A model generated the notes under the pieces. It did no database searches and was not told where the DNA came from. It saw only the letters and a program-made list of their open reading frames with translations. Positions 3,499 to 25,511 of a DNA stretch of 64,000 bases are shown here, in pieces. Position numbers and translations under genes: made by a program. How positions within the stretch are numbered: the first letter of the stretch is position 1; every line of letters begins with the position of its first letter. The DNA is taken from contig JAUHXA010000001.1 in the NCBI GenBank assembly GCA_030427245.1, positions 155,899 through 219,898 on the forward strand. The letters are read 5' to 3'. This DNA is from Bacteroidia bacterium. Its GTDB lineage: Bacteria > Bacteroidota > Bacteroidia > Chitinophagales > UBA2359.

Positions 3499-4191
3499 TC
3501 AAATATCCACTTTTCCCTCATAAATCGCCTTTCCGACAATTACCCCATACAAATCCATTTCCTCCAATCGTCTAATGTCCTCATTATTGGAAACTCCTCC
3601 ACTCGCTATCAGCTTCAATGAAGGGAATTGAGTTAGAATCTGTCCATATAATTCAAAAGCAGGTCCTTGCATCATTCCATCTTTGCTGATGTCGGTACAA
3701 ATCACATATTGAATTCCTTTACCGACAAAAAATTGAAGAAAATCAAACAAATCTAGACTCGTTTGTTCTTGCCATCCACCTACTGCAATTTGAGCATTGC
3801 GAACATCCGCCCCTAAGATAATTTTTTCGCTGCCATATTCCTCCAGCCACTCCAAAAACATTTCTCGATTTTTGACCGCAACCGTTCCTCCTGTGATTTG
3901 ACTCGCCCCACTATCAAAGGCTATTCGCACATCCTCATGGCTTTTCAGCCCGCCTCCAAAGTCAATTTGCAGTCCAGTATGCGTAGCGATTTTTTCTAAA
4001 ACCTTATGATTGACAATATGTTTTGCCTTTGCTCCGTCCAAGTCCACTAAATGCAAACGTGTTACACCTGCCGCTTCAAATTGTTGGGCAACTTCTAAGG
4101 GATTAGCATTGTAAACCTTTTTTTGGTCATAATCACCTTGTGTCAGTCTAACGCATTGACCATTGATGATGTCTATTGCAGGGATAATCAT
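3499..4191 (-). CDS. hisA: ProFAR isomerase HisA
   Basis: 1-(5-phosphoribosyl)-5-[(5-phosphoribosylamino)methylideneamino]imidazole-4-carboxamide isomerase, the histidine-pathway step before HisF. The 230-residue half-barrel-duplicated TIM barrel begins IIPAIDIINGQCVRLTQGD (catalytic Asp in AID). It has GGGLKSHED as one phosphate loop, CTDISKDGMMQGP carrying the second catalytic Asp, and ASGGVSNNED as the other phosphate loop. It is shorter than average but has all the catalytic parts. It precedes hisF in the direction of transcription. Adjacent hisA-hisF is the common order in bacteria, and function is secure. Confidence 0.96.
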   Translation of the reverse strand: MIIPAIDIINGQCVRLTQGDYDQKKVYNANPLEVAQQFEAAGVTRLHLVDLDGAKAKHIVNHKVLEKIATHTGLQIDFGGGLKSHEDVRIAFDSGASQITGGTVAVKNREMFLEWLEEYGSEKIILGADVRNAQIAVGGWQEQTSLDLFDFLQFFVGKGIQYVICTDISKDGMMQGPAFELYGQILTQFPSLKLIASGGVSNNEDIRRLEEMDLYGVIVGKAIYEGKVDI

Positions 4192-4328
4192 GATTGAATG
4201 GTTATATTGTTTCGCTTTGCTAATGGTTTCTCCTTCGGTTGACTCTTAAATGGTTAAACTGCTGTTCACTTGGGATTGTTTATATGTATAGCCATCCAGC
4301 AATATAACAATTCAACCATAAAACAATC

Positions 4329-5336
4329 TCACAACTCCATCACCGCCATTTCCTTCGCCACTTTGAAGCCCAAGTCCGATACCCGATGATAGGCTTCACT
4401 GCTTTCGTCCAAAACAGGGTTGGTGTGATTGAAGTGAATAAAATGCACCTTTGCTTTTTCCTTTGCAGGTAAATCAGCGAACAAAGTTAGGCTTTCTTCG
4501 ATAAAGGGATGGGGAATTTCACTCATATCTCTCCCTGCAATTTCACCATTTGCATAAAAAGTGGCATCCAAAAAGGCATAATCCACTTTTTTGATTTCCT
4601 TCAATATATCTCGATTCCACAAATGCCATTTGTCAATATCAGGAATAAACAAGGCTGATTTTGAAGTCCCTTCAATTTTAAACCCTACCGTTTCAGAAAA
4701 TTCATCCCGATGTGGAACGAGGTAAGGCGTAACCTTCAATCGCTCATTTAATACTACTGTTTCTTCATTTTCCAAAGGCTGCAAAGCGATGTTCTGTAAA
4801 ATAAGTAGCTGACTCCAAGGGGCATTGTTGGTCAAAAAACTGCTCATTCGAGGCATGGCATATACTTTGACCTCCTTAGTCCCCATCACCTCTCTACCCA
4901 AGTGCATCAAACCTGTATAATGTCCAATGTGCGCATGGGTCAAGAAAATGCCTGACAAGTATTCTTCTTTTACTCCCACTTGCAAACTATCCAATCGCTG
5001 CAATTGCTCTCGGAAATCGGGCGTTGCATCCAACAACCACCTTTGCTGACTAATCGGGTCAATCAATGCCAAACAAGACACCAAACGTTTACTTTCGGGC
5101 TGTTCGACGGTTCGTTTGCAGCAGGCTTTTTGACACGCTGCTTGTGGGAAACCTGCATCCTGTGCGATTCCTAAGACGGCGATATAGGGAGTTTTGGGAG
5201 TCATTGGTATTTTTGAAGTGGGTATAGAGTTCTCATTGGGAAGTTGAACCGTTGTATCTATTTCGGAGTTTTTGTGGATGACAAAAGGAGTTAACAGCAT
5301 CAACAATAAAAAGAAAAGAAGGAAGCGGTAGAACAT
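4329..5336 (-). CDS. PqqB-like MBL-fold metallo-hydrolase
   Basis: The 335-residue protein has an N-terminal hydrophobic anchor or signal (residues 3-20) followed by a metallo-beta-lactamase fold. PqqB-like features are VLGIAQDAGFPQ, a CxxxCC segment just after it, THAHIGHYTG (the HxHxDH site with Gly for Asp) and HFIHFNHTNP near the end. PqqB proper is a cytoplasmic PQQ-maturation hydroxylase. No other pqq gene is nearby and this copy has an export signal, so it is better called a PqqB-like hydrolase of unknown substrate. It is transcribed alone behind a 137-bp gap after hisA. Confidence 0.8.
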   Translation of the reverse strand: MFYRFLLFFLLLMLLTPFVIHKNSEIDTTVQLPNENSIPTSKIPMTPKTPYIAVLGIAQDAGFPQAACQKACCKRTVEQPESKRLVSCLALIDPISQQRWLLDATPDFREQLQRLDSLQVGVKEEYLSGIFLTHAHIGHYTGLMHLGREVMGTKEVKVYAMPRMSSFLTNNAPWSQLLILQNIALQPLENEETVVLNERLKVTPYLVPHRDEFSETVGFKIEGTSKSALFIPDIDKWHLWNRDILKEIKKVDYAFLDATFYANGEIAGRDMSEIPHPFIEESLTLFADLPAKEKAKVHFIHFNHTNPVLDESSEAYHRVSDLGFKVAKEMAVMEL

Positions 5337-12838: not shown

Positions 12839-14578
12839 ATGAAATTAATACACCTTGTACTGACCCTAAATTTGTTCTTTTTATTACCTTTTTTCCAAGC
12901 ATCTGCCGATACAGACTTAAAAACCAAATACCCCCAAGATTACTTTCGTTCTCCATTGGGTATTCCGTTGGTTTTGGCAGGAACATTTGGCGAACTCCGC
13001 AACAATCACTTTCATGGTGGAATTGACTGCAAAACCAACAAACAAGAGAACCTCAATATATATAGCGTGGCGGAAGGCTATGTGTCAAGGGTGAAAATTC
13101 AAGCAGGTGGCTATGGTTATGCCTTGTATATTGACCATCCAAATGGCTATACGAGTGTTTATGCTCACCTCAATGGTTTTACGGGTAATATTGGCCGGTT
13201 TGTAAAGGAACGACAATATGAACAACAGAGCTTTACCGTTGATTTGATTGTTCCACCAGGAATGTTGCAGGTCGAAAAAGGGCAGATTGTAGCAAAGTCG
13301 GGTAATACAGGCAGTTCTACTGCACCACATCTACATTTTGAAATCCGAGATACGGCCACTGAAGTTCCTATCAATCCTTTGGCTTTTGGTTACAGTGTGC
13401 CAGATACCCGTCATCCATTTTTTTCGGGAGCTGCCATCTATCCTTTTGACAACAATTACCGCTACGATACTCCTAAAATGTATAAGGTGGTGAAAAAATC
13501 CAATGGTGTGTATTCTCTCGAAGCCAATACGATAAAAGTGAATACACCCAAGATTGGATTGGGCGCAAAGGCCTATGACAAGCTAAACGGAGCAGACAAC
13601 ATGAATGGTATCTACAGCATTGAAGTATATAAAGATGGACAAAAATATTTTTACTTCGATGTTGAGCGCATTTCCTTTGACGAAACCCGCTACATCAATT
13701 GCTATTTGGATTACGAAGGTAAAAAATCGGGTCGTGGCAATATGCAGAAGTTGTTTATTGACCCAGGAAATTATCTCAGTGCCTACGAAAATGTGGTGAA
13801 TCGTGGGGTGATTGACCTTTCGGATGGAGAATCCCATCAAATTGCTATTACAGCGAGAGATATTGCAGGAAATACTTCAACGCTTTCTTACCGAGTCCAA
13901 TGGGATAAAAATCAACCGATTGCAGCGATTCCATTTGACAGCAATGCCATCACAACTTTCAGTTATGCGACCGACAATCGCTACGAAAACGATTTGATTA
14001 GATTGTATTTCCCAACCAATTCTTTTTATACAGATATCGGCTTCAACTACGAAATCATTGAAGCCAACAGCAGCAGCGTCTATTCTCAATACCATCAAGT
14101 ACATACAGGGAAAACGCCTGTCCACAAATATTTCGATATTTCTATCAAACCTAACAATTTGCCTTATCCACTTTACGACAAAGCCTACATTGCTTACTAC
14201 GATGTGGGAGGAAGAAAACGCTCCATTGATGGAGAGTGGGAGGGTAATTTTTTGAAGGGTAAGTCGAAGGAATTTGGCAAATATTTTATTGCAGTCGACT
14301 CGATTCCTCCAACGATTAAGCCTTATAACATTTCGCCCAACAAGGTGATGTCTAAAAATACTTATATCGGCTTCACCATTTCAGACCGAGAGACGGGCAT
14401 CAAGTCTTACGATATGTATATTGATGGTCAATGGGTTTTGACGACTTTTGATGCAAAAACAGGTGGGGCAAGGTATTATTTTGATGAACGTCTTGCAAGT
14501 GGAGAGCATGAAGTGACTTTTATTGTGAAGGATAGAGTAGGAAATTCAGAGAGCTATACGACGAGGTTTAGTCGGTGA
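12839..14578 (+). CDS. Secreted M23 (LytM-type) metallopeptidase
   Basis: The 579-residue protein has a signal peptide (about residues 1-23). The peptidase domain (about 40-190) has the zinc site HFHGGIDCKT (first His/Asp) and STAPHLHFEIRD (HxH motif). M23 enzymes cut glycine- or peptide-cross-links in peptidoglycan. The long C-terminal part (about 200-579) looks like several Ig-like beta sandwiches, the last with DRETGIKSYDMYIDGQW and ending DRVGNSESYTTRFSR. Such proteins act in the periplasm on own cell wall, or outside as lysins. The gene overlaps the convergent XdhC gene by 11 bp at the 3' ends. Confidence 0.92.
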   Translation: MKLIHLVLTLNLFFLLPFFQASADTDLKTKYPQDYFRSPLGIPLVLAGTFGELRNNHFHGGIDCKTNKQENLNIYSVAEGYVSRVKIQAGGYGYALYIDHPNGYTSVYAHLNGFTGNIGRFVKERQYEQQSFTVDLIVPPGMLQVEKGQIVAKSGNTGSSTAPHLHFEIRDTATEVPINPLAFGYSVPDTRHPFFSGAAIYPFDNNYRYDTPKMYKVVKKSNGVYSLEANTIKVNTPKIGLGAKAYDKLNGADNMNGIYSIEVYKDGQKYFYFDVERISFDETRYINCYLDYEGKKSGRGNMQKLFIDPGNYLSAYENVVNRGVIDLSDGESHQIAITARDIAGNTSTLSYRVQWDKNQPIAAIPFDSNAITTFSYATDNRYENDLIRLYFPTNSFYTDIGFNYEIIEANSSSVYSQYHQVHTGKTPVHKYFDISIKPNNLPYPLYDKAYIAYYDVGGRKRSIDGEWEGNFLKGKSKEFGKYFIAVDSIPPTIKPYNISPNKVMSKNTYIGFTISDRETGIKSYDMYIDGQWVLTTFDAKTGGARYYFDERLASGEHEVTFIVKDRVGNSESYTTRFSR

Positions 14579-15530
14579 TTTCATACTTCTCTGGCTCTCG
14601 CTCAAATGCCACCTTACACCCATCACAACAAAAATAGTAGTCCTTCTCTTTGAAGTTGATTATGTGTTTTGCACTGCTTTTCTGAACAGGCACATTGCAG
14701 ACAGGATTGATAAACAAGTCGGAAGAAGCATCTGTTTTAGTAGTAAGAATTTCCACTTTTTCCTCTCGAATAAACTGTACAATTTCCGCTAAAATACTGA
14801 TAGCCACTTCTTCGGGTAGTTTGGCATGAATATCCAATCCCGCAGGAGATTTGACCCGCTTCAATTGCTCATTGGTAATGCCTCTTTGTCGTAAGGTGTG
14901 AAAAATAGCGGCTGCTTTTCTTCGGCTTGCTACAAAAGCTACATATTCGGCTTTGGACTGCAATGCCTGCTCTAAAGCATCTTCGTCATTTTCACCTTGC
15001 GTACAAACCACAATACAGGTATTGGCCGTCACATCCGATGCCTGCAAATTTCCTTCAATGATGCGATTCACTCCTTCAAAACCTTCACTATCCACCGATT
15101 TTGCTGCTACAACAACGGGGTAGTCCATGCCTTTTCCCAATCGAGCCAAAGCCATTGCCACATTCGATTTGCCCATGATAAGCAGTTGAGGTTTTGGCAA
15201 AACAGGTTCGATGTAGAGTTCAACCGCCCCTCCACTATGACAAACCATTGGGTAACACATCACCCCAGGCTTGGATTCTACCTTACCATCTGGACTGATT
15301 TTGACCAATCGAGGTTTGCCGTCTTTAATCGCATCCAATGCTTCCTTCAAAACAATTCCTTTGGTACACCCTCCTCCAATCCAACCTGTTATGGTTCCAT
15401 CTTTGGTAATCACCGCCTTATCTCCAGGCTTGCCTGAAGATGGCACTTCCCGATTGACGACAAATACTATCGCAAAGGGTTCTTTGTTTTGATACAGTTT
15501 TTGGGTCGTATCTATAAATTGGTGGAACAT
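14568..15530 (-). CDS. XdhC/CoxF-family molybdenum cofactor insertion protein fused to a YHS domain
   Basis: The 320-residue protein has an XdhC_CoxI domain at the N-terminus (GDKAVITKDGTITGWIGGGC) and a Rossmann-like XdhC_C domain (LLIMGKSNVAMALARLGKGM) up to about residue 260. XdhC proteins bind the molybdenum cofactor and sulphurate and insert it into hydroxylases such as CO dehydrogenase. The last ~50 residues are a YHS/TRASH-like metal-binding domain with C278, C301, C302 and C305. It lies at the downstream end of the cox cluster. The extra metal site is unusual and may concern the copper of the Mo-Cu centre (inference). Its stop overlaps the end of the M23 gene. Confidence 0.88.
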   Translation of the reverse strand: MFHQFIDTTQKLYQNKEPFAIVFVVNREVPSSGKPGDKAVITKDGTITGWIGGGCTKGIVLKEALDAIKDGKPRLVKISPDGKVESKPGVMCYPMVCHSGGAVELYIEPVLPKPQLLIMGKSNVAMALARLGKGMDYPVVVAAKSVDSEGFEGVNRIIEGNLQASDVTANTCIVVCTQGENDEDALEQALQSKAEYVAFVASRRKAAAIFHTLRQRGITNEQLKRVKSPAGLDIHAKLPEEVAISILAEIVQFIREEKVEILTTKTDASSDLFINPVCNVPVQKSSAKHIINFKEKDYYFCCDGCKVAFEREPEKYEITD

Positions 15531-15663: not shown

Positions 15664-16806
15664 TCAAACCGACAACAACAACTCCTCCAATTGTAAAATG
15701 CTGTCTAAATTATGTGCCGACCGAAAAACATCCACATTCGGCAAAGCAGCACTCATGCCTTTTTGAATCGGTTCATAGCCCTTCATACCCTTCAATGGAT
15801 TCAACCAAATTAGTCGCCGAGTCCGCAATTTTATCTTTTTCAGTTCCGTTTCCAAAACTTCGGGTTTGCCCGTATCCAAACCATCACTCAACACAATGGT
15901 TGTTGATTGTCCATTCAAAACCTGTTTGGCAAATCGCTCATTGAAATCCTTGAAGCACTCACCAATCTTGGTGCCGCTCGACCAATTGTCCGCCTTTGCA
16001 GATAAAACAGCTAAGGTCAACACTAAGTTTTTGGCGTGTAAATAATCGGTGATGCGAATGAGGTGTGTGCTAAAAATAAAGGCCTCAATACTTTCAAAAT
16101 GAGTACGCAAGGCACAAATAAATCTCAATAGAAAAAAGCTGTATTTGTCCATCGAACCACTCACATCCAACAACACAATCAAGCGTTGTTTGCGAGGCGC
16201 ACGTTTTTTTCGCTTCAATTCGATGGGTTCACCACCATGAGAAATACTGCTCCGAATCGTTCGCCGCAAATCCAAGCGTCCTTTGTTCGTCGAAAATTTC
16301 ATTTTTCGCTTCAATCGCAGACTCATTTGCTGCCACAACTTAATCGCCAACTCCTCCAAAAATTCACTATCTATTTCTTCAATTTTGGAAAAATCCGTTT
16401 TGCGGAGTCGAGCGATTCGATTTGCGCCCGACACGTTTTTACTCTCCTCTCCTTCGTCCTTGCTTTCTCCTTTGCCCATCATCACCACCGAAGCCACCGA
16501 TTTTTTTTGCAGATTGGAGCGGTTTTTATACGTTGTCTTGCTTTTCAATCCGCCCTTTTTGTAGCCCCAAAACCAATCATATATTTTGTCAAACACTTCA
16601 ATGTCCTCCTTTGAAGCGCAGAAAATGGATTTCAGTGCAAATCGAAAAGCCTTTTTTTCACCAATCACTCCCAACTTTGCCGCCTCCAACGCATCTATGG
16701 TTTCTTGCACGCCAACGTTCAAACCATTGAAGCGAGCGAGTTGTCCGAATGCAAGAATCGCTTCGGGAATATTGGAGTAGTCGGTATGGTGGGGATTTTG
16801 GGTCAA
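15664..16806 (-). CDS. coxE: CoxE-like von Willebrand factor A domain protein
   Basis: The 380-residue protein has a basic linker at about 110-205 and a CoxE-type VWA domain in the C-terminal half with the MIDAS motif LLDVSGSMDK (DxSxS), plus LSDGLDTGKP. CoxE works with the MoxR ATPase CoxD in maturation of the [CuSMoO2] centre of CO dehydrogenase. It follows coxD by 40 bp on the same strand, as expected for a VWA-MoxR pair. There is no signal peptide, so it is cytoplasmic. Confidence 0.9.
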   Translation of the reverse strand: MTQNPHHTDYSNIPEAILAFGQLARFNGLNVGVQETIDALEAAKLGVIGEKKAFRFALKSIFCASKEDIEVFDKIYDWFWGYKKGGLKSKTTYKNRSNLQKKSVASVVMMGKGESKDEGEESKNVSGANRIARLRKTDFSKIEEIDSEFLEELAIKLWQQMSLRLKRKMKFSTNKGRLDLRRTIRSSISHGGEPIELKRKKRAPRKQRLIVLLDVSGSMDKYSFFLLRFICALRTHFESIEAFIFSTHLIRITDYLHAKNLVLTLAVLSAKADNWSSGTKIGECFKDFNERFAKQVLNGQSTTIVLSDGLDTGKPEVLETELKKIKLRTRRLIWLNPLKGMKGYEPIQKGMSAALPNVDVFRSAHNLDSILQLEELLLSV

Positions 16807-16846: not shown

Positions 16847-17716
16847 TTAAAATTCCCCGCTCATTACTGCTGCTTTCACCACTTCAATATCATTCGCCGA
16901 CTTCAATACGCAGCCCAAACTTTGGGTAATCGCCTCCACGGACAACTCTTTATATCCCAAAGCCAGCAAACCTCTCGCCCAGTCCAACGTTTCGGCAATA
17001 CCTGGCGTTTTGTCCAGTTTTTGCAGCCGCAATTTTTGGACAGCGTTGACCAACTGCATCGCCAATTGAGGTTCAATATCAGGTAGATGTTTTTCGATAA
17101 TTTTGATTTCTTTCTCCAAATCGGGATAGTTCACCCAATGATACAAACACCTCCTTTTCAGCGCATCGCTGAGTTCACGGGTACGATTGGAGGTAAGGAT
17201 AACATAGGGGCGGTGAACGGCTTTGATAGTACCCATTTCGGGAATACTGATTTGGAAGGCAGACAACAATTCCAACAAAAAAGCTTCAAATTCCTCATCG
17301 GCTCGGTCTATTTCGTCAATCAACAAAACGGGAGCTTTGGGGGCGGTAATCGCTTTGAGTAGCGGACGCTTCAACAAAAACTCTTCTCCAAAAATGTGTT
17401 CTTCTTTTTCTACATCCGACTTCTCGCTTGCCTCTTGAATTTTGATGGATAAGAGTTGTTTTTGGTAATTCCATTCATACACCGCCGTACTGACATCCAA
17501 ACCTTCATAACATTGCAGCCGAATCAATTCGGTGTCCAACATTGCGGCCAAAACATTCGCTATCTCCGTTTTTCCAACGCCTGGATTCCCTTCTAACAAC
17601 AAAGGTTTTTCGAGCTTCAATAGCAGAAATAGAATCGTTGCCAACTCTTTGTCTAAGACGTAATTGAGTTGGTCGAAACCGTTGATTATTTGTTCAATAT
17701 CTTTTGGTAATATCAT
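16847..17716 (-). CDS. coxD: CoxD-like MoxR-family AAA+ ATPase
   Basis: The 289-residue protein has Walker A EGNPGVGKT (residues 42-50), Walker B VLLIDEIDRADEEFEAF, and sensor/arginine finger LTSNRTRELSDALKRRC. In CO-oxidising bacteria CoxD is a AAA+ chaperone that helps build the bimetallic centre of CoxL together with CoxE. The start codon overlaps the coxG stop by 4 bp, showing translational coupling. Length is that of the family. Confidence 0.92.
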   Translation of the reverse strand: MILPKDIEQIINGFDQLNYVLDKELATILFLLLKLEKPLLLEGNPGVGKTEIANVLAAMLDTELIRLQCYEGLDVSTAVYEWNYQKQLLSIKIQEASEKSDVEKEEHIFGEEFLLKRPLLKAITAPKAPVLLIDEIDRADEEFEAFLLELLSAFQISIPEMGTIKAVHRPYVILTSNRTRELSDALKRRCLYHWVNYPDLEKEIKIIEKHLPDIEPQLAMQLVNAVQKLRLQKLDKTPGIAETLDWARGLLALGYKELSVEAITQSLGCVLKSANDIEVVKAAVMSGEF

Positions 17717-18423
17717 TTCCCTCCACCAAACATGCGACTAAAAAACCCTTTCACAATCGCCCAAGTCAGCGCCAGTACATTCACCGAATTGTCCACTTTG
17801 GTTTCCGTCTTAGCTTCTGTTTTAGGTATTGAAGAAGTCATTTTTTTAGAGGCAGTATTTACCGCCGCTTGTTCACCAGAATCCATATTTGTGTTTGCGT
17901 CAACCACTTCTGGGGCTGTTTCTACAACTTTTTCTACAAGAGGCTCAGCCACTACAGTAGCCGCTGTATCTTCTGCCAATTTCGCTTTGAAGTTGTTCAC
18001 AAATTGGTCAAAGAGTTGGTCTGTGACATCATTCACCAAGCGAGAACCAAACTGCGCTAATTTGCCAACAACAGTGATTTGCATACTGCTCTCAACAGTC
18101 GTTCCACCACCATTTTTTTCAGTTAGCTTGGTTTTCATCAACATGTCGGCACTTCCTTTACCTTTTGAATCCAAACCCTTGCCGTTTAGAGTCATGCTGT
18201 GATTGGCTGCGTCCATGTCTTCAAAAGCTATTTCCCCCGCATACTTGGCTTTTACAGGTCCAAACTTCAAAGAAACTTGGCCTTTGAAATTGCGGTCGTC
18301 TATTATCTCAGTCAATGAAGCACCTGGAACACACACAACAATTTTGGTGGGGTCAGTCAGATAACTCCAAACTTTTTCGACAGGCTCATCAACTTCAAAT
18401 GTTTTACTGATGGTTGTATTCAT
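17713..18423 (-). CDS. coxG: CoxG-like SRPBCC family protein
   Basis: The 236-residue protein has an SRPBCC/CoxG fold at about residues 1-150 (KTFEVDEPVEKVWSYLTDP at the N-terminus, PGASLTEIIDDRNFKG after it). A low-complexity acidic linker follows, then a C-terminal hydrophobic helix (ALTWAIVKGFFSRMFGGGK). CoxG is known to recruit CO dehydrogenase to the membrane so that its electrons reach the respiratory chain, and the C-terminal helix would be the anchor. The gene overlaps coxD by 4 bp. It is separated from coxL by 322 bp, so it may start a second transcript. Confidence 0.9.
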   Translation of the reverse strand: MNTTISKTFEVDEPVEKVWSYLTDPTKIVVCVPGASLTEIIDDRNFKGQVSLKFGPVKAKYAGEIAFEDMDAANHSMTLNGKGLDSKGKGSADMLMKTKLTEKNGGGTTVESSMQITVVGKLAQFGSRLVNDVTDQLFDQFVNNFKAKLAEDTAATVVAEPLVEKVVETAPEVVDANTNMDSGEQAAVNTASKKMTSSIPKTEAKTETKVDNSVNVLALTWAIVKGFFSRMFGGGK

Positions 18424-18745: not shown

Positions 18746-21109
18746 TTATCCCTTCAATTCCTGCAATACCTTCCAAACCTTATAAGGCGTAATCGGAATG
18801 TCCAAATGACGCACACCCAGATGCGAAAGGGCATCCACAATGGCGTTAGCGATGGCAGGAGGTGCGCCAACAGTGGGCGATTCTCCCACCCCTTTTGCGC
18901 CAATCGGATGATGAGGTGAAGGCGTAACCGTATGTCCTGTTTCCCAACTTGGAGATTCAATAGCAGTTGGTACCAAATAGTCCATCAGTGTACCGTTCAA
19001 GATGTTACCCGCATCGTCGTAAATCAATTCTTCATACATTGCAGGGGCAATACCTTGTGTCAAACCACCATGCACTTGCCCTTGAACAATCATCGGATTG
19101 ATGATGTTTCCGCAATCGTCAATCGCCACAAAACGACGCACTTTGATTTCGATAGTTTCGGGGTCAATGTCCACCACACATATATACGCTCCACTCGGGA
19201 AAGTCAAGTTTGGAGGGTCGTAATAATGGGTCGCTTCAAAACCTGCCTCCATGCCTTGTGGGTGATTGGTGTAAGATGCAAACACGATTTCTTGAATGGT
19301 CTTCACCTTTTCGGGTGCGCCTTTCACAAAGAATTTGCCCGGTTCCCACTCCAAATCGTCTTCACTAACTTCCAATAAGTAAGCCGCAATTTTTTTGGCT
19401 TTGGCTCTCAGTTTTCGGGCAGCCATTGCAGCAGCAGCGCCAGCCGTCGGCGTACTTCTACTCGCATACGTACCCAAACCATAAGGAGCCGTATCCGTGT
19501 CACCTTCTTCAATTTGAATGTTTTCGGCAGGAATACCCAATTCTTCCGCAATGATTTGAGCGTAAGTCGTTTCGTGGCCTTGCCCTTGCGATTTTGTACC
19601 AAAACGGGCAATGGCTTTGCCTGTGGGATGCACTCGGATTTCGGCACTGTCAAACATTTTGATGCCCAGGATGTCGAAGTCTTTTGAAGGCCCTGCACCT
19701 ACAATTTCGGTGAAAGTCGAAATCCCTATGCCCATCAATTTGCCTTGTGCTTTTTTCTCTTTTTGTTCCTCTCTCAGCTTCCAATAGTCCACCGTTTTCA
19801 TTGCCAACTTCAATCCTGCATGGTAATCTCCACTGTCGTATTCCCAACCGGTGGGCGACTTCCACGGAAAATCCTCTTTTTTGATGAAGTTTTGCATCCG
19901 TAAATCGGCGGGATCTATGCCTACTTCAAAGGCAAATCGGTCGGTGATGCGTTCAATGGCATGAACGGCTTCGGTGACTCGGAACGAACAGCGGTAGGCA
20001 ACTCCCCCAGGAGGTTTGTTGGTATAAACTGCATCAGCCTCCATATAAGCAGTATTGTAATTATAAGAACCTGTGCCAATGGAAAACAAGCCTGTCGGGA
20101 ATTTGGAAGGATTGGCGGAAGCGTCTGTGTAACCGTGGTCTGCCAAAACTTTGAAGCGAGTCGCCAAAATTTTGCCTTCTTTTGTTCCTGCCATTTCTAC
20201 GTTGATGTGGTAATCCCTTGCGAAAGAATCCGCTTGAAGGTTTTCGGTGCGGTCTTCAATCCATTTGATAGGCGCACCCGTCAAGAACGAAACGGCAATC
20301 GCTATCACATAACCTGGATAGACTGGCACTTTGCCGCCAAAACCACCTCCAATATCTGGAGAAATGACCCGAATTTTTTCTTCGGTCAAGCCTACATGAC
20401 CTGCGACCAAAGCAATCACTGTGCGAATAGCGTGTGGTGCTTGTGTAGTCATATACATGGTGAGGTGGTTATTGACCTTGCTGTAATCCGCCACACAACC
20501 ACACGTTTCGATAGAAACTACATGGATGCGAGGAATATACATATCTTGTGATACGACTACTTCTGCTTCATTGAATACTTTTTCGGTGGCTTCCTTATCG
20601 CCCGCTTCCCAATGCCAAATATGGTTGTCCGTTTTGCCTTCTTTGTCTGTCCGCAAAACGGGTGCATCTGCATCAAGGGCTTTTTTGGCATTCATCAAGG
20701 GTTTCATCGGTTCGTATTCTACGACTACTGCTTCTTTCCCATCCCTTGCTGTATAACGGTCGGTCGCAATGACAGCAGCGACTTCTTGTGCTTGATACAT
20801 GACTGTATCAGTTGGCAAAACCATTTGGGTGTCAGACATCAAGGTGGGCATCCAATGCAAGTTGTACTGCTCCAAATCTTTGCCTGTCACGACTGCAATG
20901 ACCCCTGGAATGGCGAGTGCAGCAGAAGTGTCAATGCTTTTGATTTTGGCATAAGCATACGGACTGCGTACGATGTCCATGTGCAACATGCCTGGTAATT
21001 TTATATCATCTACATAGTTTCCTTTGCCTTGCAGAAATCGAGCGTCTTCTTTTCGCTTCATCGAATGACCCATTCCGCTGATGGCTTTGGATGTTTTACA
21101 TTTTATCAT
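18746..21109 (-). CDS. coxL: Form I aerobic CO dehydrogenase large subunit (molybdenum-copper)
   Basis: The 787-residue protein belongs to the molybdopterin hydroxylase large subunits. Its active-site loop reads VAYRCSFR with Cys374, matching AYxCSFR, the signature of form I CoxL in which that Cys binds copper; form II proteins have AYRGAGR. Other sites are PDIGGGFGGKVPVYPG (cofactor loop), GQGHETTYAQI and the catalytic glutamate in KGVGESPTVGAPP near the end. It oxidises CO to CO2 and passes electrons through CoxS and CoxM to quinone. I start at the ATG at 21109 (MIKCKTSKAISGMGHSMKR). An upstream ATG at 21298 would overlap coxS by about 160 bp and add unrelated residues. Confidence 0.95.
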   Translation of the reverse strand: MIKCKTSKAISGMGHSMKRKEDARFLQGKGNYVDDIKLPGMLHMDIVRSPYAYAKIKSIDTSAALAIPGVIAVVTGKDLEQYNLHWMPTLMSDTQMVLPTDTVMYQAQEVAAVIATDRYTARDGKEAVVVEYEPMKPLMNAKKALDADAPVLRTDKEGKTDNHIWHWEAGDKEATEKVFNEAEVVVSQDMYIPRIHVVSIETCGCVADYSKVNNHLTMYMTTQAPHAIRTVIALVAGHVGLTEEKIRVISPDIGGGFGGKVPVYPGYVIAIAVSFLTGAPIKWIEDRTENLQADSFARDYHINVEMAGTKEGKILATRFKVLADHGYTDASANPSKFPTGLFSIGTGSYNYNTAYMEADAVYTNKPPGGVAYRCSFRVTEAVHAIERITDRFAFEVGIDPADLRMQNFIKKEDFPWKSPTGWEYDSGDYHAGLKLAMKTVDYWKLREEQKEKKAQGKLMGIGISTFTEIVGAGPSKDFDILGIKMFDSAEIRVHPTGKAIARFGTKSQGQGHETTYAQIIAEELGIPAENIQIEEGDTDTAPYGLGTYASRSTPTAGAAAAMAARKLRAKAKKIAAYLLEVSEDDLEWEPGKFFVKGAPEKVKTIQEIVFASYTNHPQGMEAGFEATHYYDPPNLTFPSGAYICVVDIDPETIEIKVRRFVAIDDCGNIINPMIVQGQVHGGLTQGIAPAMYEELIYDDAGNILNGTLMDYLVPTAIESPSWETGHTVTPSPHHPIGAKGVGESPTVGAPPAIANAIVDALSHLGVRHLDIPITPYKVWKVLQELKG

Positions 21110-21134
21110 TGTTTTGTTTGTTTTGAAGGTTTTT

Positions 21135-21641
21135 TTAAGACACAAATTCAGGTTCTGTGGAAGGAGTTTCTTCGCCTCGCATTTTCGCACTTGCCCACTG
21201 AATGGCTTTGACGATGTTGTTGTAGCCTGTGCATCTACACAAATTACCCGAAATGCCCCAGCGAATTTCCTCTTCTGTGGGATTGGGATTGTCTTCAAGA
21301 AGTTCGACCGAACGCATCAACATTCCTGGAGTGCAAAAACCGCAGTGCAAACCGTGGTTTTCTTTGAAGCCTTCTTGAAGGGGGTGCATTTCACCAGGAG
21401 CAGCCAATCCTTCAACGGTTTGAATTTCTTTGCCGTTGGCTTGAACTGCCAAAATGGTGCAGGATTTGACGGATTTGCCATTCAGTAAGATGGTACAAGC
21501 TCCACAATTGCTGGTATCGCAGCCAATGTGTGTGCCTGTTAAGTTTATTTTTTCTCGTATAAGATGTACCAACAATAGCCGATTTTCTACTTCAAGGGTA
21601 TGTGGTGTGCCATTGACGGTGACTGTTATTTCTCTTGCCAT
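21135..21641 (-). CDS. coxS: CO dehydrogenase small (iron-sulphur) subunit
   Basis: The 168-residue protein holds two [2Fe-2S] clusters. The plant-ferredoxin-type one has [21 protein letters not shown] and the helical one HCGFCTPGM and [12 protein letters not shown]. It relays electrons from the Mo-Cu site to FAD. I start at the ATG at 21641 ([20 protein letters not shown]). The longer frame from 21722 would add 27 residues with no counterpart in the family. It lies between coxM and coxL with 25 bp to coxL. The M-S-L order is that of known cox operons. Confidence 0.95.
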
Positions 21642-21759
21642 TTTTTGTTTGTTTTTTGTAGTTTTTAGATTGTGTGATTGAAGGAGTAGTGTGACGGTAT
21701 GATTGAAGAACGGTAATAACAATTACACAATTCTTCAATTTTACCATTTCACAATCTTC

Positions 21760-22629
21760 TTAGGATAAAGCTCTTTCTGCCGCTTTTTGAATCATTCTTT
21801 TGACCAAAATTCCGACCATTGCTCGTTTGTAGGCAATATCTCCGCGAAGGTCAGCAGAGGGATTGCAGTCTTCGGAAGCGTATTGAGCAGCTTCTGCAAT
21901 GGTTTCGTCAGTCAATTTTTTGCCTTTCAATGCTTGTTCAGAACGGCTTGCTCGGAGAGGCGTTGGATTGACATTGGTTAAGCCAATACCTGCATTTGTC
22001 ACCACTCCATCGCTGTCCAAAGTGAGTTGAACGGCAGCACCTGCGGTGGCATAGTCACCTACTTTTCGTTCGAGTTTGTGGTAGGCATTGCCTGTTCCGT
22101 TTGATGGAATGGGAACATGGATAGCTGTCAAAATTTCGTTTTCCTCGACGGCAGTTGAGTAAAAACCAAAGAAAAATTCGTCAATAGGTACTGTGCGTTT
22201 TCCAGCTTTGCCCGTAATTTCTACGGTGGCATTGAGGGCGATTAATACGGCAGGATGGTCATTGGCTGCGTCACCGTGTGCTATGTTACCGCCAATTGTT
22301 CCCATGTTGCGAACTTGTGGGTCAGCGATAAGCTTGGAGGCATCAGTGAAAATGGGGTACTTGGAGTGAATCAAATCGGAGTGTTCCAATTCGGCTTCTC
22401 GGGTCAATGCACCGATTTTTAGGTAGCCGTTTTCTTCCTTGATGTAGGCGAGTCCAGGAATGTTGTTGATATCAATCAAAAATTCTGGTTCGGCAAACCT
22501 AAGTTTCATCATCGGAATCAAACTGTGACCACCTGCTAAAATTTTGGCATCATCACCGTGCTTTTCGAGCAGGTCGAGTGCTTCGTCCAAGGTGGTAGGA
22601 GCTTCATACTCAAAGGAGGCAGGAATCAT
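21760..22629 (-). CDS. coxM: CO dehydrogenase medium (FAD-binding) subunit
   Basis: The 289-residue protein has the two FAD-binding motifs of the family, AGGHSLIPMMKLRFAEPE near residue 32 and TIGGNIAHGDAANDHPA near 110, and a C-terminal CO_deh_flav_C domain (RKVGDYATAGAAVQL onward). It takes electrons from CoxS and reduces quinone. The AGGHS and TIGG motifs agree with form I medium subunits. It is first in the M-S-L set. The 118-bp gap to coxS may contain a small regulatory site, but I see none. Confidence 0.95.
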   Translation of the reverse strand: MIPASFEYEAPTTLDEALDLLEKHGDDAKILAGGHSLIPMMKLRFAEPEFLIDINNIPGLAYIKEENGYLKIGALTREAELEHSDLIHSKYPIFTDASKLIADPQVRNMGTIGGNIAHGDAANDHPAVLIALNATVEITGKAGKRTVPIDEFFFGFYSTAVEENEILTAIHVPIPSNGTGNAYHKLERKVGDYATAGAAVQLTLDSDGVVTNAGIGLTNVNPTPLRASRSEQALKGKKLTDETIAEAAQYASEDCNPSADLRGDIAYKRAMVGILVKRMIQKAAERALS

Positions 22630-22902: not shown

Positions 22903-24015
22903 TTATGTCCGCTCATGAATTGCTCCGTGCCGCTTTCGCAAATATCCCCCCTCTCTATTTCTAAAAACGGCAATGATTTCGGCCGCAATGGACAAGGCGA
23001 TTTCTTCTGGGCTTTCTGCTCCAATGTCCAAACCGACAGGTGCATAAAGGTTGGAGGTGTTTTCTAAGTCTATTGGGTTTCCATTGTCTGCCAATTCGTT
23101 TTGCATTTTGACCATGCGCTTTTTGGGGCCTAAAAGTCCGATATAAGGCACATCTAAGGTGAGATATTTTTGAAGGAGGGTGAAATCGGTTTTGTAGTCG
23201 TGTGACATTAAGATTATGGCTGTATAATCATCTACTTCAATGTCTTTGGCATCTTCAATGGAATAGACTTTTTTGGCGTGTTTGTAAATGCTTTTACCGA
23301 GTTTGCGGGCTTTTCCTGCTACATGGATTTCCCAACCCAATTCGGTCGCAATGCCTATAAAAGCGTTGATATCATAATTGTCGCCAATGCAAACGAGTTT
23401 GATTTTGGGGCGAATCAACTCAAAAAGGATTTCACATTTGTCGCCTGATTCATTGGAGAATGTAAATACTTGGGATTTTCGTTTTTGGTAAACAATTGTC
23501 GTTTTTTCTTCAATGGCTGACAAGGGAATTTCCAAGTCATTTGCCAATTGAAGAAGGTTGTCGGAAGTATAAAAATGTCCGCGTTTGTTGCTTTCCTTGC
23601 CTTCTATGCTAAGGATTTGCAGCAAAATAGTGGCATTTCTTTGGTCGGTAATGCCTTTCAGAAATTCAATTTGGTTGTTGGTGTTGGTTTCTTCAATTGG
23701 AGTAAGCAGCACTTCAATGCGTCCATTGCAGCCCAAGCCTACACCAATTTGGTGAGGGTCGTCTTCGGTTGTGTCATAGACCACGATGGAGCTTTTGTTT
23801 TTCATGATGGCTATTTGCGCTCGCTTCAAAGCATCACCCTCCAAACATCCGCCACTAATTCCGCCTACCCATTGTCCATTATTGCTGACAAACATTCGTG
23901 CGCCAATTCTTCGGTAAGCCGAACCTTCGACTTTCACGACTGTACCCAAGGCTACCTTTTCTTGTGTCCAGTCAATGCTTTGGTATCTTTCTATTATTTT
24001 TTCGATTTCTTTCAT
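22903..24015 (-). CDS. XdhC-family molybdenum cofactor insertion protein
   Basis: The 370-residue protein has an N-terminal XdhC_CoxI domain (VVKVEGSAYRRIGARMFV and GGISGGCLEGDALKRAQ) and a C-terminal XdhC_C domain (CIGDNYDINAFIGIATELG, then YIGLLGPKKRM), ending with GLDIGAESPEEIALSIAAEI. It prepares sulphurated Mo-cofactor for CO dehydrogenase or a related hydroxylase. The ATG at 24015 (MKEIEKIIERYQSIDWTQEK) is chosen because the longer frame from 24099 runs into the upstream gene. It is the first gene of the cox group, and a second XdhC with a YHS domain closes it. Confidence 0.92.
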   Translation of the reverse strand: MKEIEKIIERYQSIDWTQEKVALGTVVKVEGSAYRRIGARMFVSNNGQWVGGISGGCLEGDALKRAQIAIMKNKSSIVVYDTTEDDPHQIGVGLGCNGRIEVLLTPIEETNTNNQIEFLKGITDQRNATILLQILSIEGKESNKRGHFYTSDNLLQLANDLEIPLSAIEEKTTIVYQKRKSQVFTFSNESGDKCEILFELIRPKIKLVCIGDNYDINAFIGIATELGWEIHVAGKARKLGKSIYKHAKKVYSIEDAKDIEVDDYTAIILMSHDYKTDFTLLQKYLTLDVPYIGLLGPKKRMVKMQNELADNGNPIDLENTSNLYAPVGLDIGAESPEEIALSIAAEIIAVFRNREGGYLRKRHGAIHERT

Positions 24016-24077
24016 GCTTGTAAGTTGTTGTTTGGCTTGGTGCGAAATTTCGTTTTTTTTAGGGGGATTTCCAAATT

Positions 24078-25511
24078 TTACAAACTTTCTGACAGCCAAA
24101 TCACGGGCAAATAATTTCCTGCATAACCATTTTCCTCAATGAATATAGTTGTGTCAACTTTCAACTTCTCTAAATCCGCTATTTTCTTCAATGGCACTTC
24201 CGTTTTTGCTTTGGCATATCGCAATAAAAACTTCACCACTGTTTCGTAGTCCACATCAATTTCATGTTTTTCGTGGTAACGATACATCTTCAAAAAATTG
24301 TGACATTCCCGCATAGCGGCCTCTTCGTCTTCTGATTGACAATAGGCAATGATTTGCACCAATCGAAAATAGTAGTATTGAGCATCAGGTCGTTGCTGGA
24401 TATTTGGAGGAATACAATCTATTGCTTTTTCGGTTTCTTTTAGGAAAATATGACACATGGCTTTGAGGCACAAAAAACGGTAATGGACTTTTTCATTGAC
24501 CTCTATTGCTGCTTGATTGTCTTCAAATAATTCAATGGCTTTGGCGTATTTTTGCAATTTGATGCAATTGCTGAAATAGTTGAAAATGACCGTCAGTTGA
24601 AGTTTTTGTTTGCTTGATTCTGCAAGTTTTAGGGTTTGAAGGTAATAGTCATCAGCAGCTTGGTGATTGCCCATTAGATAATATTCCAAGGCAATGGTCG
24701 CCAATAAAAAGAACTTGCGGTTTTCGGCTTGCATTTCTGGCTGATGACATTGTTCGATAAAACCCAATGCCTTTTGTAGGAGTATGATTTTTTCCATGCC
24801 TGTTTTTTGAAAAGACAAGGCATACAAATACAAGTAGTTGGAATAGTAGTCATTTACCGACTCTTCCTTCAAATCAACAGTTTGAATCAAGTCAGAATAA
24901 GGAAAATCAGGATTGGTCACTTTAAGGGTTCGCTCTGCAAAGGCTTTCATAACCTCCGAAGCTCGTATTTTTCGTACTGCGTCTTTTTGTATCCAATTTA
25001 TTTTTTGAAGATAGCCCGCATGAATCGTGTTTTGGTACAAGTCTTCGGTAATTTCTTGGTTGGTGATAAGATAGCGTAAATAAAGCGTCGTCATTTTGTC
25101 GAGGATTTCATACTGCAAATCGTCGCTTGCTTTGGCAATCATTTTCTTGAAGGCAGCTTCAAATTCTTGGTATAATTCTCTTTCTTTCAATGCCCTCAAT
25201 AACCACAGGTTGTATAAATGAACGTTTTCTTTGAAAGTTTTTTCTAACTGCTTTTGCACCAAAAAGTCTTCCAATTCATCGTTCAACAATCGAAGTTCAT
25301 TGCGAATTAAATAGTCCTTTGAAGGTTCATATTTTCTAGCAAATACCGCTTTGTAGAGACTTGCTTTTGAAGATTCATTGGTTCTGTTTAATTGCTTTTT
25401 CAGAAAAAAATACAGATTTTTCAAGCTGTTTCTTTTGTGTGTTTTTATCACAGCTTCAAACTCTTTTTTTTCCCTTCCTTGCAGGCTGTTGAGTAGGTCA
25501 GTTGTTTTCAT
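24078..25511 (-). CDS. Large helical protein of unknown function
   Basis: The 477-residue protein begins MKTTDLLNSLQGREKKEFEA (ATG at 25511; a frame from 25556 would add 15 residues). It is entirely alpha-helical in appearance, with TPR-like pairs in the second half (AADDYYLQTLKLAESSKQKL, YAKAIELFEDNQAAIEV). No signal peptide or enzymatic motif is visible. It is likely a TPR-like scaffold. It precedes the cox group on the same strand by 62 bp, but I see no functional reason to tie it to CO oxidation. Confidence 0.7.
   Translation of the reverse strand: MKTTDLLNSLQGREKKEFEAVIKTHKRNSLKNLYFFLKKQLNRTNESSKASLYKAVFARKYEPSKDYLIRNELRLLNDELEDFLVQKQLEKTFKENVHLYNLWLLRALKERELYQEFEAAFKKMIAKASDDLQYEILDKMTTLYLRYLITNQEITEDLYQNTIHAGYLQKINWIQKDAVRKIRASEVMKAFAERTLKVTNPDFPYSDLIQTVDLKEESVNDYYSNYLYLYALSFQKTGMEKIILLQKALGFIEQCHQPEMQAENRKFFLLATIALEYYLMGNHQAADDYYLQTLKLAESSKQKLQLTVIFNYFSNCIKLQKYAKAIELFEDNQAAIEVNEKVHYRFLCLKAMCHIFLKETEKAIDCIPPNIQQRPDAQYYYFRLVQIIAYCQSEDEEAAMRECHNFLKMYRYHEKHEIDVDYETVVKFLLRYAKAKTEVPLKKIADLEKLKVDTTIFIEENGYAGNYLPVIWLSESL

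Follow-up and report, generated by a model that had tools for sequence, protein, structure and literature searches.

CoxF, the product of the gene at 14568-15530 on the minus strand of the window (the whole 64,000-nucleotide stretch of Bacteroidia DNA analyzed here), probably inserts copper into form I CO dehydrogenase as a two-part factor, in which a tethered C-terminal YHS domain would carry Cu(I). The gene is a single open frame of 320 codons encoding 320 amino acids, and the plus strand of the same interval has stops. Two XdhC-family domains were identified in the protein with Pfam, both of which exceed the cut-off: XdhC_CoxI (PF02625) at residues 14-78 (15297-15491; E 3.5e-17, 62.5 bits), which includes the invariant C55, and the Rossmann domain XdhC_C (PF13478) at residues 116-250 (14781-15185; E 3.6e-30, 105.5 bits). 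The motif MVCHSGG (residues 95-101, including C97; 15228-15248) was located by alignment with Oligotropha CoxF. A linker (residues 251-273; 14712-14780) joins this core to a YHS/TRASH-like domain (PF04945) at residues 274-316 (14583-14711), which contains C278-x22-C301-x3-C305 and scores 41.9 bits (E 1e-10) against a curated cut-off of 30.3. The fusion of an XdhC protein to a YHS domain, as reported in the preliminary description, is thus confirmed, and the four cysteines named there (C278, C301, C302 and C305) are found at those positions. The model for the XdhC accessory protein of xanthine dehydrogenase (TIGR02964) gave 44.8 bits, below its curated cut-off of 161.6.

This gene is coxF by position, because it follows coxE at the end of the run coxM-coxS-coxL-coxG-coxD-coxE of a form I cluster, all of it on the minus strand. 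The run comprises coxM for the FAD subunit (21760-22629; glyceraldDH_beta and related models), coxS for the [2Fe-2S] subunit (21135-21722; glyceraldDH_gamma and related models), coxL (18746-21112), coxG (17713-18423; PF06240), coxD for a MoxR-type AAA ATPase (16847-17716; AAA_5, with MadB_ATPase below cut-off) and coxE for a VWA protein (15664-16806; PF05762, E 4.9e-59). CoxL reaches 1233 bits with TIGR02416 against a cut-off of 991 and carries the motif AYRCSFR, and what had been described as a Mo-Cu CO dehydrogenase cluster is genuinely form I. The mechanically called coxL frame (18746-21298) begins at a TTG at 21298 that falls within coxS; a start at the ATG at 21112 is more likely and gives the better family fit. 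Profile searches also identified a second XdhC-family gene, CoxI-like and without YHS, upstream of coxM (22903-24099, minus strand). In a tree of the XdhC core alone (58 chosen rows, IQ-TREE, mixture model; the core tree), the window protein groups with Oligotropha CoxF and apart from CoxI, with support of 100/99 for the split from the CoxI-type outgroup. A form II CoxL of the AYRGAGR type, with coxD and coxE nearby, is encoded elsewhere in the window genome (L118; G000 C12:55000-73000), and no XdhC gene was found near it in the 18 kb read.

An AlphaFold2 model of the window protein (46-row alignment) has a mean pLDDT of 92, with both core and YHS domain confident. Confidence is lowest at residues 262-266 of the linker (pLDDT below 50), as expected of a tethered module. 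The core matches the XdhC structures 2we7 (the Rv0376c homologue) and 3on5 (Foldseek E 5.4e-18; profile E 1.4e-38), which share the core fold and in which no C-terminal metal module was matched. Modeled alone, the module gives a pLDDT of 91.7 and adopts the YHS/TRASH fold. Its six best chains are soluble methane and toluene/o-xylene monooxygenase hydroxylases (Z 5.0-5.3), followed by L24e/Rlp24-type ribosomal chains (Z 3.8-4.8), all low values as the domain is small; phenol hydroxylase matches the module in sequence. None of these nearest solved folds, the YHS of diiron monooxygenases and the L24e-type TRASH, is a copper carrier, and the YHS domain of toluene monooxygenase binds no metal according to the available part of PMC4626032.

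Other cox clusters were checked for the same fusion. A plasmid protein search identified YHS-fused CoxF beside the CO dehydrogenase large subunit in Thermomicrobium roseum, Paraburkholderia aromaticivorans, Deinococcus sp. AJ005 and the archaeon Natronorubrum bangense; the CoxF that it identified in Oligotropha carboxidovorans is unfused and has 280 amino acids. When contigs of named genomes were searched with a profile of fused proteins, the fusion was present in 79 of the best 80 of 287 loci, a set biased toward the fusion because the YHS domain contained one of the search patterns. A form I CoxL ([AVS]YRCSFR) was seen in the same locus for 65 of these 79 genes (63 by the first pattern and two with V or S in first place); in the remaining 14, the locus does not extend far enough on one side. 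Among the matches listed, the best named relatives of the window protein are from MAGs of Phaeodactylibacter and Saprospiraceae.

A survey free of that bias was based on loci chosen by form I CoxL (TIGR02416 over cut-off) in five phyla, regardless of YHS. Form I CoxL was detected in 6/296 genomes of Bacteroidota, 42/296 of Actinomycetota, 17/349 of Pseudomonadota, 65/301 of Chloroflexota and 5/196 of the haloarchaeal phylum, corresponding to 139 places over the cut-off (6, 45, 18, 65 and 5, respectively). We read 127 of these places, in 126 loci including the window, and omitted 10 from Chloroflexota and two from Actinomycetota. A CoxF-type protein, defined as an XdhC protein scoring more than 200 bits with a local profile, occurs in 118 of the 126 loci; several of the eight loci without one owe this to contig ends. 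Of the 118 C-termini, 96 carry YHS and five an HMA domain; the 17 others carry no module of either kind and include 14 from Pseudomonadota and one (L161) that is cut by a contig end. By phylum, YHS-fused CoxF accounts for 52/52 in Chloroflexota, 36/38 in Actinomycetota (one of the other two is truncated by a contig end), 4/5 in haloarchaea, 3/17 in Pseudomonadota and 1/6 in Bacteroidota. The phyla were sampled around fusion-bearing genomes, so that phyla without the fusion may be missing from these counts. With Pfam alone (E<=0.01), YHS is seen in 91/118 rather than the 96/118 of the local profile, and it is seen in 89/111 after removal of the window and six loci of the fusion-bearing centre genomes. 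One haloarchaeon (L236) and one actinobacterium (L121) have no YHS, though relatives beside them do. The coxF gene usually follows coxL directly, with a gap of less than 600 bases in 91/118 loci; 25 of 35 long Chloroflexota loci have no coxD or coxE nearby, and yet CoxF-YHS is present. These results dispose of the objection that the fusion might be absent from all other form I clusters. Chance or an annotation artefact is ruled out both by recurrence in loci picked regardless of YHS and by Pfam.

XdhC serves molybdenum enzymes without copper, and YHS was not detected on any XdhC frame other than CoxF, whether in form I loci (0/48) or in 27 form II loci (0/26; 0/74 in total). Similarly, no CoxF-type protein was found in the 27 form II loci (seven Bacteroidota and 20 Actinomycetota), one of which extends into a form I CoxL with its own CoxF truncated away. 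The window protein has a match in 26 of 99 related genomes, in which the sole carrier of form I CoxL and the sole carrier of the fusion are both the window genome itself. A scan of frames of at least 35 amino acids over about 8 kb in all 153 survey loci detected no YHS gene outside CoxF that could stand beside a module-less CoxF, and only two weak HMA matches, in long frames (L113, L172). MHYT membrane domains were considered as the copper module of YHS-less clusters. The MHYT motif is seen in 11 of 18 proteobacterial loci and in none of the other 135 survey loci; the similarity search also matched YHS-bearing proteobacterial loci, probably via the LytTR part, and the available part of PMC11347149 describes the MHYT-LytTR protein CoxC as a CO-responsive transcription regulator. 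MHYT was rejected as a maturation factor because of these matches and the role of CoxC.

C278, C301 and C305 are invariant in all 96 YHS-bearing CoxF proteins, whereas C302 is a cysteine in just 43 of them and is elsewhere S, G, A, N or R. The four-cysteine site of the preliminary description is thus reduced to three, C302 being dropped. The spacing between the equivalents of C278 and C301 is x22 in 90/96 and 18-21 in the rest, and the window protein, with C278-x22-C301-x3-C305, conforms to the TRASH-type metal-site motif, C-x19-22-C-x3-C. Related domains have a further ligand position, which the available part of PMC4626032 gives as C in L24e and as D in the Mycobacterium phlei adenylyl cyclase. 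The corresponding position ahead of the three cysteines of CoxF is D in 92/96, N in 4/96 (N275 in the window protein) and C in none. Since there are three invariant cysteines and no fourth at the first ligand position, Cu(I) fits better than zinc held by four thiolates; a three-thiolate site of this kind would suit Cu(I). Two core cysteines, C55 and C97, are conserved in 118/118 CoxF-type proteins, and C97 aligns with the cysteine of MCPSHGTM, which Pelzmann et al. proposed as a copper site in Oligotropha CoxF. By eye, CoxI-type proteins likewise have a cysteine there, so C97 is not special to CoxF. One CoxF, that of Deinococcus sp. AJ005 (L025, 9001-10062), keeps a YHS-like domain in which C278 is replaced by D and C301 by T.

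In place of YHS, five Bacteroidota CoxF proteins (L108-L112, at 13024-14022, 3786-4784 on the minus strand, 13117-14115, 13137-14135 and 13849-14844, respectively) have a terminal HMA domain of 60 residues that includes a CxxC motif. All five genes lie beside coxD, coxE and a form I CoxL. In the three proteins scanned singly, the HMA domain (PF00403) scores above the Pfam cut-off with E-values of 2.8e-10 to 6.4e-10. In a search of 146 genomes of the same class, full-length HMA-CoxF was detected in seven genomes, two of them beyond L108-L112. The closest solved chains of the HMA piece are copper ATPase domains and CopZ, and its closest NCBIfam models are likewise copper-binding and CopZ models, although below their whole-protein cut-offs. 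The core tree unites the window protein, four other Bacteroidota YHS proteins and the five HMA proteins in one clade (support 98/92), in agreement with a wider quick tree of 157 rows (support 94), from which L161 and repeat loci were omitted. Since the HMA proteins are sisters of the window YHS protein, the same place appears to have been refitted with another metal module. HMA and YHS are unrelated families, HMA is absent from the window protein, and the occurrence of two unrelated small metal modules at the same end is the strongest hint that this end binds a metal; the HMA type, which is that of CopZ copper chaperones, points to copper. On the trees, YHS is the commonest state, HMA occupies one lineage and the Oligotropha-type lineage has no module, with the direction of change unproven. 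The HMA-CoxF group is small (seven genomes, three family codes) and may reflect one event, and in most lineages shared ancestry may be all that keeps the core and its module together.

A copper role for CoxF has an experimental basis in Oligotropha. In the available part of Pelzmann et al. 2014 (PMC4240915), coxE and coxF mutants contain apo-enzyme with some sulfurated Mo and no copper; the coxF mutant still forms Mo-SH and Mo-SSH. CoxF was proposed there as the copper supplier because its mutants make copper-free enzyme, it is said to act on the folded apo-enzyme, and histidine acid phytase and RGD motifs are proposed for it. The term Mo-cofactor chaperone in the preliminary description is thus a family name only. 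The CoxF of Oligotropha (Afipia) carboxidovorans OM5 (pHCG3; WP_013913733.1) shares with the window protein both XdhC domains (39% identity), the location of its gene behind coxE in a form I cluster and the proposed copper-site cysteine, but it stops before the YHS position and has neither YHS nor HMA. Because this protein and 14/17 Pseudomonadota CoxF-type proteins are without a module, the core can work without one.

Following sulfuration of the Mo site, the XdhC core would dock on the folded apo-enzyme. The YHS domain, on its flexible linker, would carry one Cu(I) on the three thiolates of C278, C301 and C305 and pass it by ligand exchange to the site formed by Mo-S and the CoxL cysteine, perhaps via C97 of the core. 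Oligotropha-type CoxF would have to rely on its core by itself or on another donor. Copper as the metal, its Cu(I) state, the path through C97 and the docking are what we infer, and copper binding itself is likewise predicted. We are evenly divided on a broader reading, which makes CoxF a modular metallochaperone for copper with an XdhC core and an interchangeable C-terminal module as dedicated copper donor of the Mo-Cu enzyme: YHS would serve in most lineages and probably be ancestral, a CopZ-like HMA would serve in some Bacteroidota, and Oligotropha, the model organism by which the field was shaped, would be an exception that lost the module.

The YHS domain could instead be structural, holding Zn(II) or no metal, and aid CoxF folding or its binding to CoxE, CoxD or CoxL without carrying copper. 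That diiron monooxygenases contain YHS folds with no role in copper handling, and that the Deinococcus CoxF does without two of the three cysteines, is consistent with such a function. However, the invariance of the three cysteines in 96/96 proteins with no fourth at the first ligand position suits Cu(I) better, and a swap for a copper-chaperone-type HMA in sister proteins is hardly expected of a purely structural domain, so that we regard this explanation as unlikely. HMA domains are metal carriers, which also argues against a role in which what the cysteines relay to the Mo site is sulfur, as persulfide, and not copper. Such a relay would resemble the protection and insertion of sulfurated cofactor by XdhC, and XdhC proteins are said to work with a cysteine desulfurase in the introduction of PMC4240915; the absence of YHS from all 74 other XdhC frames and the presence of Mo-SH and Mo-SSH, yet no copper, in the coxF mutant described in the same partial source make it very improbable.

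Copper could also be sensed rather than delivered, the YHS domain switching CoxF or a CoxE/CoxD complex on without handing over the ion. Switching of this kind is known from the M. phlei adenylyl cyclase, where, in the available part of PMC4626032, a C-terminal YHS module with cysteines matching C278, C301 and C305 acts specifically with copper. That module regulates cAMP synthesis and is not part of a metalloenzyme maturation factor, whereas CoxF has no signaling partner domain and its module in the HMA lineage is of the copper-ferry type. Sensing had been offered in the preliminary description beside delivery, but nothing found points to it in particular, and we consider it quite unlikely. 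The metal module on a maturation protein, in contrast, stands, and copper delivery by the tethered YHS domain is the best reading of the sequences given the fusion in 96/118 proteins and the HMA swap.

Copper delivery by CoxF is not the new idea it had been taken for, since it was already proposed by Pelzmann et al. in the part of PMC4240915 available; a YHS domain acting with copper is likewise published. What looks new is the YHS module on CoxF, its spread and its replacement by HMA. A literature search, with subscription journals mostly outside its scope, found nothing that joins XdhC, CoxF or CO dehydrogenase with a YHS domain, and nothing on accessory proteins was found in the available part of PMC6794299. 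Mo-Cu CO dehydrogenase is the enzyme that removes atmospheric CO, and the copper route into its Mo-Cu site now rests on one mutant set from one species whose CoxF has no module. Should a defined copper module be present in most CoxF proteins, the donor, the ligands and the transfer would be open to direct tests, and a CoxF with YHS or HMA may help to produce active CO dehydrogenase in heterologous hosts.

Further variation was observed among the YHS-bearing proteins. In a haloarchaeal CoxF (L026, 8956-10095), YHS is preceded by a long linker in which a CCGGG stretch is perhaps a further metal site. The genome of Paraburkholderia xenovorans LB400 (G384) contains two form I clusters on two contigs (L166 and L169), each with CoxF-YHS. 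Finally, a CoxF from an Anaerolineae MAG has two tandem YHS domains by Pfam (L040, 9998-11152, and L207, 6906-8030, which are the same gene).
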